Shown here: positions 7,277 through 60,510 of the stretch, one piece after another | Position numbering within the stretch: position 1 is the first letter of the stretch | How the letters are laid out: each line of letters starts with the position of its first letter | The notes under the pieces: model-generated | Databases searched by the model: none | What the model was told of the DNA's origin: nothing | Seen by the model: only the letters and a program-made list of their open reading frames with translations | Origin: an uncultured beta proteobacterium | GTDB lineage: Bacteria > Pseudomonadota > Gammaproteobacteria > Burkholderiales > SG8-41 | Assembly: GCA_903933915.1 (NCBI GenBank) | Contig: CAIZLW010000201.1 | Coordinates: 1 to 62,529, forward strand | Direction of reading: 5' to 3' | DNA length: 62,529 bases | Position numbers and translations under genes: made by a program

Positions 7277-8608
7277 ATGACCGCACGCGACACCCGACTC
7301 GAACCGTACTGGATGCCGTTTACCGCCAATCGGGCCTTCAAACAGGCGCCGCGGATGCTGGTAGCGGCGAAGGACATGCATTACTCAACGGATGATGGCC
7401 GCCAGATTCTGGATGGAACATCGGGGCTCTGGTGCGTGAATGCGGGGCATTGTCGACCGCGCATTGTCGAAGCCATACAGAAACAGGTCGCCACGATGGA
7501 TTACGCGCCGGCGTTCCAGATGGGGCACCCCGATGCGTTCCGCCTCGCGGAACGCCTTGCTGCGATGGCGCCCGGCGATCTGGACCACGTGTTCTACTGT
7601 AACTCCGGCTCGGAAGGTGTCGATACCGCGCTAAAAATCGCACTGGCCTACCACCGCGCGCGCGGCGAAGGTCACCGCAACGTATTGATTGGTCGCGAGC
7701 GCGGTTATCACGGCGCCGGATTCGGCGGCATTTCTGTCGGCGGCATACCGGCCAACCGCAAGGTCTACGGCAACATGCTGTTCCGGGTCGATCATCTGGC
7801 GCATACGCATAATCTGAAGGAAAACGCTTTCAGCAGAGGCCAGCCCGCCTGGGGCGCCCATCTCGCCGATGAACTCGAAGCGCGCATCGTGCCGCTGCAC
7901 GATGCCAGCAACATTGCCGCCGTCATCGTTGAACCGCTGGCCGGTTCCACCGGCGTGCTGGTGCCGCCCAAGGGTTACCTTGAACGCCTGCGTCAGATCT
8001 GCGACAAATACGGCCTGCTGCTGATATTCGATGAGGTCATCACCGGCTTCGGCCGCACCGGTCCCTGCTTTACTGCAGATGCTGTCGGTGTGGTTCCGGA
8101 CATGATGATCATTGCCAAGGGACTCACCAACGGCACGGTGCCGATGGGCGCGGTGATCGCGCGCCGCGATATTTACGAGACCGTGGTCAACAACGCACCC
8201 CCGGGCATGGTCGAGCTGTTTCACGGCTATACCTATTCGGGACACCCGCTGGCAACGGCGGCCGCATTGGCCAGCCTGGATACCTTCGAAGAAGAAGGAT
8301 TGTTCCAGCGCGGGCAGGAACTCGCACCCTACTTCGAGCAGGCGGTGCAGTCGCTGCGCGAAATGCCCAATGTCATCGACGTACGCAACATGGGTCTGGT
8401 CGCGGGCATCGAACTGGAGTCGCGGCCCGGTGCGCCGACGGCGCGGGCGTTCGAAACCTTCCTCAAGTGTTACGAAAAAGGCGTGCTGATCCGCACCACC
8501 GGCGACATCATCGCGATGTCGCCACCGCTGATCATCAGCAAGGCGCAAATCGATGAACTGGTGGGCACGCTGGCCGACGCCCTGCGGGAGGTTGGGCGGA
8601 ACGGTTAA
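7277..8608 (+). CDS. Class III PLP aminotransferase (beta-alanine:pyruvate type)
   Basis: PLP-dependent omega-amino-acid transaminase of 443 residues, cytoplasmic. The N-terminus (LEPYWMPFTANRAFK) and the segment DGTSGLWCVNAGH match the beta-alanine/omega-amino-acid:pyruvate transaminase group. FDEVITGFGRTG gives the PLP-binding aspartate, and the Schiff-base lysine is Lys281 in MIIAKGLTNG. Probable reactions are beta-alanine or other omega-amine plus pyruvate to the semialdehyde plus alanine; the exact substrate is not readable. It stands alone on plus, divergent from the fused transporter gene with an 80-bp gap, so a functional link to the transporter is possible but unproven. Confidence 0.92.
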   Translation: MTARDTRLEPYWMPFTANRAFKQAPRMLVAAKDMHYSTDDGRQILDGTSGLWCVNAGHCRPRIVEAIQKQVATMDYAPAFQMGHPDAFRLAERLAAMAPGDLDHVFYCNSGSEGVDTALKIALAYHRARGEGHRNVLIGRERGYHGAGFGGISVGGIPANRKVYGNMLFRVDHLAHTHNLKENAFSRGQPAWGAHLADELEARIVPLHDASNIAAVIVEPLAGSTGVLVPPKGYLERLRQICDKYGLLLIFDEVITGFGRTGPCFTADAVGVVPDMMIIAKGLTNGTVPMGAVIARRDIYETVVNNAPPGMVELFHGYTYSGHPLATAAALASLDTFEEEGLFQRGQELAPYFEQAVQSLREMPNVIDVRNMGLVAGIELESRPGAPTARAFETFLKCYEKGVLIRTTGDIIAMSPPLIISKAQIDELVGTLADALREVGRNG

Positions 8609-8647
8609 AAGTTATATAAAACAATAACTTGCAATACCACCCCACAT

Positions 8648-8680
8648 AAAAACGGGCAGTCGAGACTGCCCGTTTTTTTA
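8648..8680. terminator. Bidirectional rho-independent terminator
   Basis: AAAAACGGGCAGT (8648-8660) and ACTGCCCGTTTTT (8665-8677) form a perfect 13-bp inverted repeat with loop CGAG, followed by a T run on plus and preceded by an A run, so it works on both strands. It sits between the convergent aminotransferase and oxidoreductase genes. Confidence 0.93.
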
Positions 8681-8692
8681 TTGCCGCAGGTT

Positions 8693-11600
8693 TTATTTCG
8701 TCAGGCAGTGGTGCAGCCAGGCCGCCGTCAGCTTTTCCTGCGTCGAGTTCTGCTTCAGCCGCTGGTCCAGCGCCGGCCAGTCGACGTGGTCGAGCTCCTG
8801 ATCCTGGTTGAAGCAGGAGAACACATAACTCTTCTTGCCGGTCTTGGGATCGACATGCGGCTGCAGACACTGCGCGCAGATCTCTTTCATCATGCACTGC
8901 ATCGGCGAGTTGATCGAACCGACAGCGTGGTGGCATTCCTTCAGATGCGGCTTGAGAATGTCATGCCGCGCCCTGGCCACCGCTGCCATCATCTTGTCTG
9001 AACCGATGGCGATGATGCGGTCGGCATCACTGAACGCAATCGCCTGCTCGCCGAGCGCGCCCGAGGCATAACTTTTCATCGCCTGCACGATGTTGCCGAC
9101 GAAGGTGCGGTCCGCAGGACGTGACGGCTTGAAACCCGGCTGCTCATCGCAGCACCAGATCACCACATCGCTCGCCGCTTCGATATTTTCAACGTGGTAA
9201 CGGTCGGCCATCGACTTGTAGCCGGCGAAATAGAGTACGCGGCTGCCCGCCTTGCGCATCGCCTGGCCGATGGAAAACAGCACGGCATTACCCAAACCGC
9301 CGCCAACGAGCATGACGGTCTCGCCGGAAGTAATTTCTGTCGGTGCACCGGTCGGCCCCATCAGGATCACCGGTTCGCCGGGCTTGAGTTCCATGCACAG
9401 ATTGCTGGAGCCGCCCATTTCCAGAACGATGGTCGAGAGCAGTCCCTGCTCCCGATCCACCCAGGCGCCAGTCAACGCCAGGCCTTCCATCGCCAGCGTG
9501 CTGCCCTGGGTTTTGGCAGCGCGTGATTCGAAATTCTGCAAACGATAGAACTGGCCGGGCTGAAAACGCCGTGCCGCCAGCGGCGCCTTGAGGATCACTT
9601 CGACGATGGTCGGCGTCAGGCGTTTGACTTCGTGCACCGTGGCGCGGAGTTCGGCCTGCAGTTTACCGAGGAATCCGGCGTCATCGGCTTTTGCCGCGGG
9701 CTGAACCTGCTCCAACACCTTGCTGACCACCGGATAGCCCTGCTTCGCGCTGCCGATGGCCTTGACGACATTGCCGAAAAACGACGGATGCACGTCACCA
9801 AAGTAGCTTATATAGCGTCCATCGTCGCGCTTCGACAGCAGCACATTGATGGCATTGGGTTTGGATATGGATTTCTCGGCGGCGACTGGTTGGCCGTTTT
9901 CATCGCAGGCACGGAAGTAACGGCCGTCCAGCACAAAGTGATCGGCGTCTTCGCGGGCCAGCACGGTATTCGGCTGCGTGCCTGCGGCGATCAGTACTGC
10001 TTTCGCCGGGATCAACGTTTGTCCGACATCCCGCCATTCACCGTCCTCGCCTTTGGATTGCACCGCAACCTTGAGTCCGCTGGCGTGGCCGTATTGATCG
10101 GTTTCGATCGCCAGCGGCGTCAGGCATTCGGCGAAGGTGATGCCTTCCTCCAAAGCCTTGTGTATTTCCTCGTGGTTGAGCGTGTATGAAGGGCTGTCGA
10201 CCAGGCGCTTGCGATAGGCAACGGCCGCGCCGCCCCAGGATTGCAGCAGTTGCAGGACACGCGGCTCGCGGCCTTCTTTTTCCGCAGCAACACGTTCAGC
10301 ACGAATCGCCCGGGCATGCCCCATGAATTCTTCTGCAATCCCGCGCTCTTCCGGCGTCCAGGTGATGCGCGTGCCGGCTTCGCCGAGTTTGGCGACCAGC
10401 GTTTCATGGCGCTTGAGGAATTTCTCGACCTGCAGCGGGTAATAAGCCAGCGACTCGGTGGCAGTGTCGATTGCAGTCAGCCCGCCGCCGATGACCACGA
10501 CCGGCAACCGCAGTTGCATATTGGCAATGGAGTCGTCCTTGGCCGCGCCAGTGAGCTGCAAGGCCATCAGGAAATCTGACGCCGTACGCACACCACGCGC
10601 CAGGCCGTTGGGCATGTCGAGCACGGTCGGGCGGCCGGCACCGATAGCCAGTGCAATGTGGTCGAAGCCCAGCGCAAACGCATCCTCGGCAGTCACCGTG
10701 CCACCGAAACGCACGCCACCGAAGAGCGCAAACTGCTCTCGGCGCTCAAGAAGCAACCTTATGATTTTTAAGAAGTTTTTATCCCAGCGTACGGTGATGC
10801 CATATTCAGCAACACCACCGAAACCGGCCATCGCCCGCGTATCCAGCGATTCATACAGATCACGAATGTCGCGCACCGGCTGGAACGACACCCGCTTGCC
10901 TGCGGCATCAACACCGGACAGTGCCGGCGGCAAGGGCTCGATTTTGAGGCCGTCGATGCCGACCACAGTATGGCCGTCGTTCATCAGGAAATGCGACAAC
11001 GAAAACCCCGCAGGCCCCATGCCAGCGACCATGATGCGTTTACCCGATGGCGCCTTGGGATAGGGATTGCGCAGGTTCAGCGGATTCCAACGCGTCAGCA
11101 GGCTGTAAATCTCGAAGCCCCAGGGCAATTCGAGGACGTCCTTCAGCGTGCGCGTTTCCGCCTGCGGAATATCGACCGGTTCCTGCTTCTGGTAGATGCA
11201 GGACTTCATGCAGTCGTTGCAGATGCGGTGGCCGGTTGCTGCGGCCATCGGATTGTCGACTGCGATAATCGCCAGCGCGCCAATGGCAAGGCCCTGGGTC
11301 TTGGCTTTATGGAATTCTGAAATTTTTTCTTCGAGCGGACAGCCGGCCAGCGTGATGCCGAACGGGGATTTTTTGAACGACTGCGCGCCGCGTCCACTGG
11401 CACCTTTCTCCAGCAGACCTTTTGAACACGAGTCCTTGCCCTGCTCATGGCACCAGATGCAGTAGTTGGCCTCGTCCAGCGCACCGGTCAGATCAGTGCC
11501 GCTGTCGGTCAGCTTGAATCCGGCACGCTGACGCAGCTTCGACACATCGAAGCGGTGCTCGGTGTAACCGCCGGCGGTACTGACTTGCGACGGCACCAGG

Positions 11601-57627: not shown

Positions 57628-58941
57628 ATGAAACTCAGACTTTCAGGAGTGTTTTGGGCGATTTTCCTATTGGCGGCCGCCAGCGCCGCAAACGCCGCGC
57701 CTGCCGACGATATCAAAGCGCTGATCGAAAAAGGCAACTCGGCAGCCGCCTATGCGCTTGGCAAACAAAACCCGCAGGAACTTGGCAATCCGGTTTTTGA
57801 TTTCTATTTCGGCGTTGCCGCTGTCGATAGCGGCCATTCCGGCGAAGGCGTTCTGGCGCTCGAACGCTATATCATCAATTTCCCCGGTAACCTGCAGGCT
57901 CGACTTGAACTCGCACGCGGCTATTTTGTGCTTGGGGAAGATTTGCGCGCCAAGGAAGAGTTCTCCGACATCCTGAAAGCCAATCCGCCATCCGACGTGG
58001 TGGCAAACATTGATCGTTACCTCGATGCCATACGCGCCAGGGAATCGACCTACCGGACCACATCAGGCGTATTCGTTGAATTCGGCGCCGGATACGACAC
58101 CAACATCAACGGCGGGGTCAGCGGATCCAACATCAGTCTGCCCAATTTCGGCCTTGTGACCGTTGCACCGGCAGGCGTCCGCATTGACCGCGCATTCAGT
58201 CAACTGACCGCGGGTGCCAGTGTATCCGTACCGTTGGCTCCAGGCGTTGCCGTATATGGCTCTTTCAGCGGCGATTACAAACTCTATTCCGGCGACAGGG
58301 AGTTCGACCAGGGAAATCTGGGGGCTGCCGGTGGCGTCAGCTATCTCTCGGAAAAGAATCTTTATCGCGCGACAGTTTCGCTGAATTCCCTCGATGTTGA
58401 TTACAACCGTTACCGAAACATCAGCGCATTGACCGGTGAATGGATCCATCAACTGGATGAACTGCAGGGCATCAGCGGCTCACTGCAATACGCCGATCTT
58501 GATTACACCGGCAGCAACGACATCCGCGACGCCAAACTCTATGGTATCGGCATCGGCTACCGCAAAGCATTTATCAACGCCTGGAGTCCCCTGCTCACAG
58601 TCAACGGCGGCTACTCGGTGGAAAACAACACTGCAGGGCGCGATGATCTCGGTCGCGATATTTACGCCTTGCGTGTCGCCGTCAGCGCCTCTCCTGCCCC
58701 GCGCTGGTCCGTCGGCGGCGGCCTGGGTGCGCAGATGAGCCGCTATTCCGCACAGGACACCTTGTTGCTTACAACCCGCCGGGACCATTACCTCAGCCTT
58801 GATGGCGCCTTGAGTTATGCCGTGAACCGTCAATTGAGCCTGCGCGGAGAACTACTGCTGTCAGCCAATTACAGCAACATCGAATTGTATGAATACCGTC
58901 GCGATGTCATCGCCTTCAAAGTCCGCTACGAGTTCAAATAG
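57628..58941 (+). CDS. TPR plus outer-membrane beta-barrel protein, Slam/T11SS-like
   Basis: Predicted outer-membrane protein of 437 residues from ATG 57628, with GGGGAG nine bases upstream. A signal peptide (1-23, ending ANA) is followed by TPR-like helices (about 27-125). The segment GVFVEFGAGYDTNINGG (about 147-163) opens a beta-barrel of alternating hydrophobic strands that runs to the aromatic C-terminal end VRYEFK. TPR domain plus barrel, and the GYDxNIN motif, resemble surface lipoprotein assembly modifiers, the type XI secretion outer-membrane proteins. The next gene begins 9 bases later and is the likely partner or cargo. An alternative is a structural or adhesin-like barrel of unknown job. 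Confidence 0.75.
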   Translation: MKLRLSGVFWAIFLLAAASAANAAPADDIKALIEKGNSAAAYALGKQNPQELGNPVFDFYFGVAAVDSGHSGEGVLALERYIINFPGNLQARLELARGYFVLGEDLRAKEEFSDILKANPPSDVVANIDRYLDAIRARESTYRTTSGVFVEFGAGYDTNINGGVSGSNISLPNFGLVTVAPAGVRIDRAFSQLTAGASVSVPLAPGVAVYGSFSGDYKLYSGDREFDQGNLGAAGGVSYLSEKNLYRATVSLNSLDVDYNRYRNISALTGEWIHQLDELQGISGSLQYADLDYTGSNDIRDAKLYGIGIGYRKAFINAWSPLLTVNGGYSVENNTAGRDDLGRDIYALRVAVSASPAPRWSVGGGLGAQMSRYSAQDTLLLTTRRDHYLSLDGALSYAVNRQLSLRGELLLSANYSNIELYEYRRDVIAFKVRYEFK

Positions 58942-58950
58942 AGGTACGCC

Positions 58951-60510
58951 ATGACCCGATCCCTCGCCTTTCTGGCCCTGATGCTGAGTGTTCCATCCAT
59001 CTGGGCTGCAGATGCCGGCCGCGTATTGCTCGCCGGCGGCAATGCCGTTGTCATCCGCGCAAACCAGACGATTCCATTGACGAGAGACAGCGCCATTCAG
59101 GAGAAAGATGTTCTGCGCACCGGCCCCGGGAGCAGCCTGCAGGTACGCTTCAGCGACGAGAGTCTGGTGTCCATGCGCGAGAACAGCGAGCTCAGTGTCG
59201 ATAATTACCGTTTTGAAGGACGCGAAAATGGCAATGAAATGCTCGTGTTCCGACTGGTCAAGGGTGGCCTGCGCACCATCACGGGTTTGATTGGCAAAAC
59301 CAATCACAAAAACTATTCCCTGAGTTCAGTAACTTCGACCATCGGCATACGTGGCACCGACTATGCAGCAACACTATGCCAGGGTGACTGCCGTAATGCT
59401 GACGGCTCAGCGGCTGCAGACGGACTTTATGGCCGTGTCATAGGGCAATCAAGTGGAACCAATCGCATTGTTGTCAGCAACGAGAGCCATGAAAGACAAT
59501 TTGGCATAAACCAGAATTTTTATGTCGCTGATGCACGCAGCGAACCACGGCAACTTCTCGAAGCACCATCCTTCGTTTCAAGCAGGCCCGAAGGCCGTGG
59601 TCAGACTGCACGTAAGGATGGCGACCGGTCAACAGGACGTGAAACTGCCACATCAGGGGGAGCCAGCCAGGAAAGCCGCGTATCCAGCACCGAAACTGCA
59701 GCGCCTGAACCCCTGGCCTATGTCGTTACCGAAGACAAATCAGCCAGCGGCAACCCCACGGTACTGACCGGAACACTCGGCATCGCGGGCGCCAATGGCG
59801 GCGATGCCGGCGGAGCGACCGTATTTGCCAGTCAGCTGACACTGTCCGGAACAACGCTGATCGGATTAAACGTCACTGGCACCGAGGATAACGGAACTCC
59901 GTTTTCTTTCAGCGGCACAACAACTATAGGTGCAGTCGCCGATACCGGCTCCAGCGCCGATATCTATGCCAACTGGGGCCGCTGGACCAGCGGCACCATC
60001 GTTGACAACGGTGTCGTTATAACACTGGGCCCCGCGCCCAACGGCCACTTTCATTACATCTATGGCGAACTGACCCCGCCCGATGTGGTTGCATCAAAAA
60101 CTGGAACCGCCGTGTTCAGTCGCATTGGGGGTACTACACCGACTGATAGCGTTTCACCGGTGAATACGGCTTCGAGTTTTACTTTCGGCTCAATCGGGAT
60201 CAATTTCACTACGCGTACTGCGAGTCTGAGCAGCCTGAACATGTCGTTCCCGACAGGCGTCAACTACAACTTCAGCAGTGTACCGCTGACCATGAATTTT
60301 AGTGGCGGCGCGGCAAGCATTGAAGGCCGGGTGACCAATAGCACCGGTTGCACGGGTGGCGCTTGCATCACCAGTTCACCGGCCACCCTGAAAATCGATG
60401 GTGCGTTTTTAGGTCCAAACGGGAATCACATCGGCGCGGTATTCGCGACTCAGTCTGTTGCCGGCACCACCGCTTCCGCACAATTGTTCAAGTGCAGCGC
60501 CTGCCCCTGA
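58951..60510 (+). CDS. FecR-domain protein with C-terminal TbpB-like barrel region
   Basis: Exported 519-residue protein. Signal peptide 1-19 or 20 (PSIWA-A) lacks a lipobox cysteine. A FecR domain spans about 45-140, including VLRTGPGSSLQVRFSDESL and IGIRGTDYAA, with a Cys143/Cys147 pair just after. A Ser/Gly/Thr-rich linker lies at about 205-250. The C-terminal half is strand-rich, with WGRW (342-345), a KTGTAVFSRIGGTTPTD segment and GAFLGPNGNHIGAVF (484-498). These resemble the small barrel of transferrin-binding-protein-B-like cargo. It ends with CSAC. It follows the TPR-barrel gene by 9 bases, GAGG preceding its ATG. Ligand and location are not known. Confidence 0.72.
   Translation: MTRSLAFLALMLSVPSIWAADAGRVLLAGGNAVVIRANQTIPLTRDSAIQEKDVLRTGPGSSLQVRFSDESLVSMRENSELSVDNYRFEGRENGNEMLVFRLVKGGLRTITGLIGKTNHKNYSLSSVTSTIGIRGTDYAATLCQGDCRNADGSAAADGLYGRVIGQSSGTNRIVVSNESHERQFGINQNFYVADARSEPRQLLEAPSFVSSRPEGRGQTARKDGDRSTGRETATSGGASQESRVSSTETAAPEPLAYVVTEDKSASGNPTVLTGTLGIAGANGGDAGGATVFASQLTLSGTTLIGLNVTGTEDNGTPFSFSGTTTIGAVADTGSSADIYANWGRWTSGTIVDNGVVITLGPAPNGHFHYIYGELTPPDVVASKTGTAVFSRIGGTTPTDSVSPVNTASSFTFGSIGINFTTRTASLSSLNMSFPTGVNYNFSSVPLTMNFSGGAASIEGRVTNSTGCTGGACITSSPATLKIDGAFLGPNGNHIGAVFATQSVAGTTASAQLFKCSACP

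Follow-up and report, generated by a model that had tools for sequence, protein, structure and literature searches.

The FecR domain normally acts inside the cell envelope. The Slam (DUF560) outer membrane proteins of the type XI secretion system (T11SS) export another type of domain, the TbpB-like barrel. In the published similarity network of T11SS proteins, 9 of 10 clusters are described as mostly water and soil associated and without any characterized protein (PMC8406197). Here, we analyzed a 62,529-nucleotide stretch of DNA from an uncultured beta proteobacterium (contig CAIZLW010000201.1; the whole stretch is called the window), in which two adjacent genes bring these domains together. 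Gene 1 (product, P0001) encodes a divergent Slam protein, and gene 2 (product, P0002), separated from it by 9 bp on the same strand, encodes a FecR-domain protein ending in a TbpB-like barrel. A first-pass annotation, made from the sequence alone, had noticed the two genes and placed them correctly. Its observation holds and reaches wider than the locus on which it was made, as the pairing recurs in relatives.

A Slam-family protein and its FecR-domain neighbor

Gene 1 encodes a divergent Slam/DUF560 (type XI) outer membrane protein. When P0001 was scanned alone, weak Pfam matches were obtained (BBP2_2, with an E value of 0.001, and TPR). Because direct Pfam and NCBIfam scans were too weak for both gene 1 and the C-terminal domain (CTD) of gene 2, relatives and profiles were needed. 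Among the 24 sequences of the A1 set (P0001 and its relatives), SlipAM matched 17, though not P0001 itself, and TPR_Slam matched 9 at E values of ≤0.1 (best, 8.6e-16 and 1.7e-6, respectively). The gene 1 family profile, of whose 70 rows 66 were used by hhalign, aligned over 393 columns with a profile of 11 Slams paired with TbpB_B_D proteins (probability of 100, E value of 1.8e-47), in good agreement with the DUF560/Slam assignment of the first-pass annotation. Ten of these 11 Slams were scanned, and all 10 scored above the SlipAM cutoff (best E value, 2.7e-86). Furthermore, BLASTP aligned P0001 with a SlipAM-positive protein from the phylum sample (L201) with an E value of 9e-12. A search of the window's genome with PF04575 gave no match, and since the control likewise gave none, this carries little weight.

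The structure of each protein was predicted singly. The AlphaFold2 model of gene 1, built on the 70-row alignment, had a predicted local distance difference test (pLDDT) score of 94.4 and a predicted TM-score (pTM) of 0.77. It consists of helices (residues 25 to 139) followed by 14 long strands (residues 145 to 436, counted from the strand list). The signal peptide, TPR helices and barrel read earlier from the sequence are consistent with the model; the aromatic C terminus calls for a slight correction, as the protein ends in RYEFK, with the aromatic residue next to last. In Foldseek, the TPR-barrel exporters BcsC and PelB came at the top, the barrels OmpG (TMt of up to 0.70) and CymA were among the 50 matches listed, and a Slam was named nowhere among these 50. 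Judged by its family, the gene 1 product would transport a cargo across the outer membrane.

The N terminus of P0002 is hydrophobic and free of cysteine and reads as a signal peptide without a lipobox. It is followed by a Pfam FecR domain at residues 53 to 140 (E value of 7.9e-10; 39.5 bits against a cutoff of 24). In the gene 2 model (mean pLDDT of 78.8, pTM of 0.52), a low-confidence stretch at residues 212 to 274 separates two better-modeled parts, the FecR domain and a strand-rich C-terminal part that contains GAFLGPNGNHIGAVF at residues 484 to 498, all as first described. When a profile of the C-terminal domain (A5; 53 rows) was searched against 177,635 Protein Data Bank (PDB) sequences, the first 13 matches were TbpB, LbpB and hemophilin (E values of 6.3e-5 to 0.014); ranks 14 and 15 were enzymes (0.51 and 0.57). 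Similarly, hhalign aligned this profile with 18 PF01298 stretches over 107 columns (probability of 89, E value of 2.3e-6). With the whole gene 2 model, Foldseek returned TbpB and hemophilin at ranks 1 to 22 (best E value, 3.5e-6) and fHbp next, while the FecR-type anti-sigma structures 4m0h and 4m0n and PupR (6ovk) were found at ranks 25, 26, 28 and 29 (5e-4 to 8e-4). A fatty acid synthase (9p4v; rank 34, probability of 0.18) was taken as a chance match, and single-sequence PDB searches with the two proteins gave nothing useful. Profile and fold thus agree on a TbpB-like barrel at the C terminus of P0002, the relationship proposed for it earlier. Neither of the two outcomes named by the first-pass annotation as contradicting it, a gene 1 product outside the DUF560/Slam family or an unrelated C-terminal fold in the gene 2 product, was obtained. 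The coordinates of all features are listed in Table 1.

Table 1. Features of the two-gene locus (positions in the window)
Feature	Position	Strand	Basis
Gene 1, P0001, Slam/DUF560 (T11SS) family outer membrane protein, 437 amino acids (aa); ATG at 57628, stop codon ending at 58941	57628..58941	+	Profiles, model, tree
Gene 1 signal peptide, residues 1-23	57628..57696	+	Read from sequence; helix 6-21 in model
Gene 1 TPR-type helices, residues 25-139, putatively periplasmic	57700..58044	+	Model; weak TPR matches
Gene 1 14-strand outer membrane barrel, residues 145-436	58060..58935	+	Strand count from the model's list, closure unchecked; CymA and OmpG among fold matches
Gene 2, P0002, FecR-domain protein ending in a TbpB-like barrel, 519 aa	58951..60510	+	Pfam, profiles, model, fold
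Gene 2 signal peptide, residues 1-19, no lipobox	58951..59007	+	Read from sequence
Gene 2 FecR-type beta domain, residues 20-205 (Pfam FecR 53-140)	59008..59565	+	Pfam, model; fold matches 4m0h, 4m0n, 6ovk
Gene 2 disordered linker, residues 212-274	59584..59772	+	pLDDT below 50
Gene 2 pedestal- or handle-like strands, residues 276-360, including WGRW	59776..60030	+	Model strand list, alignments; "pedestal" by analogy with PMC12282271
Gene 2 C-terminal 8-strand barrel, residues 367-514	60049..60492	+	Eight long strands from the model's list, closure unchecked; profiles, fold
Gene 2 motif GAFLGPNGNHIGAVF, residues 484-498, resembling the G.FFG..A.ELGG.F stretch of TbpB_B_D	60400..60444	+	Sequence; consensus of PF01298 stretches

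Recurrence of the gene pair in relatives

Within the genus, family and order of the window, 25 of the 28 loci with a P0001 match had an adjacent FecR gene, the exceptions being two weak matches (L066 and L070) and a contig end (L068). In a set of 80 GTDB loci, a FecR partner lay on the same strand at the Slam gene in 72 loci (74 partner genes); close kin are overrepresented in these counts because the best 80 of 317 loci were taken. The number of Slam open reading frames (ORFs) in the 80 loci is 84, counting two that represent fragments of, or frames overlapping with, others. P0002 and the 74 partners (the FecR set) all matched Pfam FecR at an E value of ≤0.05, and of the 76 FecR ORFs present in the 1.22 Mb of these loci, 74 are the Slam partners. 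Where no FecR partner was found, the gene next to the Slam gene resembled that of a degenerate FecR protein in L139 (Pfam FecR E value of 0.061) and, judged by eye, in L144, L145, L155 and L161, and these five loci also have a separate barrel gene. L125 carried a barrel cargo (7935-9566) whose N-terminal region resembles peptidase C39 (Pfam E value of 8e-5, just under the cutoff), and L138 and L148 had neither a FecR nor a barrel match. One relative carries its Slam homologue as two ORFs (L077 7109-8514 and L122 8875-10280).

We then turned to a sample of 398 genomes from the phylum. The 26 genomes that matched A1 most strongly, the window's own genome aside, supplied the first 20 loci, from 20 of these genomes; of the others, G049 was already represented as L088, G121, G145 and G224 were left out, and G074 and G422 went into the next batch. 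A FecR gene was adjacent in 17 of these 20 loci, on the opposite strand in two of them; L193 and L194 had a multibarrel cargo without a FecR match, and L211 had neither FecR nor barrel. Of the next 20 loci, 8 had an adjacent FecR gene, 11 had a TbpB_B_D protein but no FecR and the last had neither; the TbpB model used was built partly from the same genomes. More generally, the sets to which the FecR, CTD, barrel, TbpB and CHASE2 hidden Markov models were applied also supplied the sequences for building them.

A quick tree of 118 Slams (LG+G4, with long-branch warnings) separated 98 rows, 88 of them labeled FecR partnered, from 20 rows, 7 of them so labeled, with an SH-like approximate likelihood ratio test (SH-aLRT) value of 99; the labels were set partly by hand and rely on the loose CTD model. 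Four FecR-TbpB_B_D fusions sit within the 20-row side, so that the FecR association either originated repeatedly or is ancient. One of these (L226) harbors FecR (E value of 1.2e-13) and TbpB_B_D (6.7e-7), both above cutoff, in a single chain adjoining a protein with SlipAM and TPR_Slam; against the NCBI model for Slam-dependent lipoproteins it gave an E value of 6.3e-6, under the cutoff. Overall, the pairing of Slam and FecR genes is retained across relatives and is more than chance. Together with the TbpB-like barrel, this supports the earlier proposal that the gene 2 product is the cargo of the gene 1 exporter, by which it would be exported.

The partners vary in architecture. Among the 66 complete FecR partners, a strict barrel model places a barrel at most 16 residues from the C terminus in 49, six of which have two to four copies, and finds none in 17. 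Twelve of these 17 are of what we call the Rubrivivax type, in which the next gene encodes the barrel; in L127, this barrel is found by the loose model only and the contig ends within the gene. Because FecR domain and barrel are split into two genes in these 12 loci, they need not travel together. The remaining five, L103, L116, L121, L132 and the first L169 gene, gave no strict barrel match. The loose CTD model, which matches 60 of the 74 partners, also covers the last part of the FecR domain. Within the FecR set, CsgG matched 12 of 75 proteins, and TPR_2 matched 11 of the 13 separate barrel proteins and outliers scanned. In the phylum sample, 16 rows have a FecR gene without a CTD match; in the tree, 15 of them fall among the 98 rows, and L222 falls among the 20. 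Several of these FecR proteins have proline- and glycine-rich tails.

We also noted a three-gene form, consisting of a Slam gene, a gene for a FecR or FecR-like protein (a number of these with a CsgG-like end) and a gene for a separate TbpB-like barrel protein (L131, L134 to L137, L139, L143 to L145, L147, L152, L154, L155, L157, L161 and L162). In L081 (5960-7246) and L082 (7328-8845), the FecR protein carries another C-terminal domain, DUF2135-like by eye, and the adjoining Slam is about 50% identical to P0001. Giant partners of 1,305 to 2,315 aa with an N-terminal FecR domain occur in L085 (11045-17992), L087 (3198-10043), L091 (7338-11792) and L142 (10498-14415), the last with four barrel copies. 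The multibarrel proteins of L193 (8180-11242) and L194 (6635-10255) resemble the "Sphingomonas surface proteins" of PMC12282271; that of L193 has Pro-Thr repeats and an N terminus that is FecR-like by eye, yet without a Pfam FecR match.

The nearest relatives are metagenome genomes of Betaproteobacteria/Burkholderiales. In the window, the pair is flanked by an rluB-like gene on one side and recR on the other, both on the opposite strand. The same two neighbors enclose it in 7 of the 80 related loci, and one of them is visible before the contig end in 2 more; either gene lies within the examined flank in 15 of the 80. At an E value below 1e-50, the gene 1 profile matched 26 of the 74 genomes of the window's own family (own genome counted), so that the system is patchy within the family. 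Seven flanking genes of the window were scanned, with matches to dapD, PilT/PilU, an L3 glutamine methyltransferase, RluB-like, recR, YbaB and dnaX. A promoter and terminator scan of the locus gave no more sites than shuffled sequences.

Position of the FecR domain and alternative readings

Family membership, folds and pairing are supported by the computations above; for entry by Sec, export and the position of the FecR domain, we infer the following. The two genes probably form one unit, a type XI exporter with its dedicated substrate, in which the barrel is exported and the FecR domain is most likely left in the periplasm. The substrate would enter the periplasm by Sec, and the exporter would recognize its C-terminal pedestal and eight-strand barrel and pass them to the cell surface, as for TbpB or hemophilin. 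On its long flexible linker, the N-terminal FecR domain would stay in the periplasm, near the TPR domain of the exporter and the peptidoglycan. With this end left behind, the protein would need no lipid anchor to remain at the surface, and the periplasmic part could be read or anchored. The pairing may allow a surface protein to be held or read from the inside.

Three features of the relatives argue for the periplasm, one of them being the division of FecR and barrel between two genes in the 12 loci described above, alongside the CsgG matches within the FecR set. As a second, a LysM-like segment lies ahead of FecR in 6 of the 74 partners and in both FecR proteins of L197; in the FecR set, Pfam LysM matched 2 and FimV_core 5 of the 75 proteins. 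Third, downstream on the same strand, 0.1 to 6.3 kb away, a CHASE2 gene was found in 13 of 41 phylum-sample rows, namely, 9 of 16 with FecR but no barrel, 4 of 4 with a FecR-TbpB_B_D fusion, 0 of 11 with TbpB only and 0 of 10 remaining rows. Although four of these loci went into the seed of the CHASE2 model, PF05226 matches at all 13 sites; the contig of L199 ends too early to judge. If the pedestal length of P0002 is assumed, the linker is estimated at 50 residues or more in all 35 aligned proteins (median, 86), which would be long enough for spanning the outer membrane, though this is no proof of spanning. The retention module of LapA remains periplasmic, and the retention_LapA model gave a partial match in 36 of the 75 FecR-set proteins (best E value, 6.7e-10).

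Two further observations touch on these domains. In L201, L204, L205, L206 and L208, the gene order is Slam-like, FecR and CHASE2-domain protein, which looks like a trans-envelope signaling cluster; in L208, the CHASE2 protein is histidine kinase-like and a response regulator-like gene follows (by eye). The window's own genome encodes a LapG-like protease elsewhere (L232, G000:C80; PF06035 E value of 2.3e-16; NCBIfam LapG, partial, 145.9 bits against a cutoff of 320). No LapG-type site was seen in P0002 by eye, and retention cut by LapG was set aside, the retention match being partial and under the cutoff.

A number of points speak against the account given above. P0001 had no match to SlipAM (PF04575), and P0002 none to TbpB_B_D (PF01298), up to an E value of 1 in direct scans. 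The Foldseek TM-scores of gene 2 are low (TMq of 0.20 to 0.27 for TbpB and hemophilin; TMt of 0.49 for the TbpB C-lobe, 5kkx), in part, we think, because two domains and a free linker were compared together. Among the other fusions (L218, L220 and L229), L218 and L229 had no PF01298 match up to an E value of 0.05, and their TbpB_B_D assignment comes from a model of our own making, one of whose stretches was taken from the genome of L226. LysM is rare among the partners. CHASE2 is absent from the window locus, the two matches among those listed for its genome lying on another contig, and among close relatives it was found in just 7 of 80 loci, some of which have it upstream or in the opposite orientation. 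Many ordinary two-domain proteins have long linkers. The retention_LapA matches scanned singly cover about half of the model and stay under the curated cutoff of 50 bits (NF033682), P0002 reaching 15.4 and the best of ten relatives 36.9. Finally, we know of no half-exported T11SS cargo, and in the cargo described in PMC12282271 the N-terminal part is the effector.

This last point leads to ordinary T11SS export, in which the whole nonlipidated protein would reach the surface or be released, its FecR domain serving as the N-terminal effector. Such export would fit the cargo layout published in PMC12282271, an effector and a pedestal ahead of a C-terminal barrel, and the signal peptide without a lipobox is as in soluble cargo, a lipobox pattern being found in just 6 of the 74 partners. 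However, the LysM ahead of FecR in some partners, the FecR proteins without a barrel match near CHASE2 genes and the loci with FecR and barrel in separate genes all argue against it. We thus regard full export as rather unlikely and, of the two outcomes that the first-pass annotation had left side by side, favor a protein that would be held across the membrane over one moved entirely to the surface.

In a third arrangement, nothing would cross the outer membrane: the Slam-like barrel would be a receptor, FecR would relay its state in the periplasm and the TbpB-like barrel would plug it or sense from below. The co-occurrence of Slam-like, FecR and CHASE2 genes in several lineages is consistent with such a sensor, as is the operon of LysM-FecR and CHASE2 kinase described for Burkholderia contaminans (PMC5192318). 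However, the TbpB-like barrel is the type of domain that Slams export, and neither a CHASE2, a sigma factor, a response regulator nor a FecI-like gene is present among the seven flanking genes scanned, so that we find this arrangement improbable. FecR anti-sigma regulators have a cytoplasmic anti-sigma domain and a FecI-type partner, while P0002 starts with a signal peptide; a FecA/FecR/FecI-type regulator was rejected for the window pair, as it has no anti-sigma part and no partner genes among the seven flanking genes scanned. Because BcsC and PelB led the fold list, gene 1 was also considered as an exopolysaccharide exporter of the BcsC/PelB/PgaA type with an unrelated FecR neighbor. This is highly improbable and was rejected: the sequence profile is that of a Slam, 14 strands were counted, the seven flanking genes scanned include no polysaccharide genes and the FecR partner is recurrent.

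Partial export, with the FecR domain in the periplasm, hence remains our preferred reading. Going beyond it, we put forward only tentatively that FecR-paired Slams form a separate type XI branch whose cargo spans the outer membrane, with its barrel displayed outside and its FecR or LysM-FecR end in the periplasm, reporting to an inner membrane CHASE2 sensor in some lineages. If true, a secretion system would here underlie an outside-to-inside signaling route comparable to FecA-FecR, except that the receptor would be an exported protein. In any case, the recurrent FecR partner represents a testable class of cargo for part of the T11SS family, and it raises the question of whether a half-exported protein can serve as a lipid-free anchor or sensor.

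Comparison with described systems

The first-pass annotation had not known this cargo layout as described. In agreement with this, we found no paper joining FecR with Slam/DUF560, type XI secretion/T11SS, surface lipoprotein assembly modifier or TbpB barrel in the open-license literature searched (supplements aside), and the term FecR does not occur in the text, supplements aside, of the Slam/T11SS papers PMC5449769, PMC8406197, PMC9100927, PMC7857515 and PMC12282271. As far as this literature reaches, the window pair is one case of a recurrent and undescribed pairing.

P0002 shares its FecR domain, by Pfam and fold, with the anti-sigma regulators FecR and PupR but has a signal peptide instead of their anti-sigma domain and transmembrane helix. 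LapA-type adhesins share with the reading favored here the notion that a plug in the periplasm keeps hold of a surface protein, but they depend on a type 1 system and long repeats. The N-terminal domain of P0002 is partly similar to their retention module, under the family cutoff; here, however, a Slam and a TbpB-like barrel are involved. The LysM-FecR/CHASE2-kinase operon of B. contaminans (BiofilmReg) resembles those relatives that have a CHASE2 gene near FecR, but the window pair has no such neighbor, and the words "outer membrane" are absent from the main text of PMC5192318.

The closest likeness is to the T11SS itself. Like known Slam proteins (DUF560, PF04575), gene 1 combines TPR helices with 14 strands, shows profile homology and lies beside a cargo gene with a TbpB-like barrel; unlike them, it has a FecR partner, falls below Pfam detection and is set apart from the TbpB_B_D-paired Slams in the quick tree. 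Similarly, gene 2 shares with the cargo proteins TbpB, LbpB, hemophilin and fHbp the C-terminal barrel, the strands preceding it and the G.F.G motif. It differs from them in its N-terminal FecR domain and long linker and in following its exporter gene, and from TbpB also in having no lipobox.

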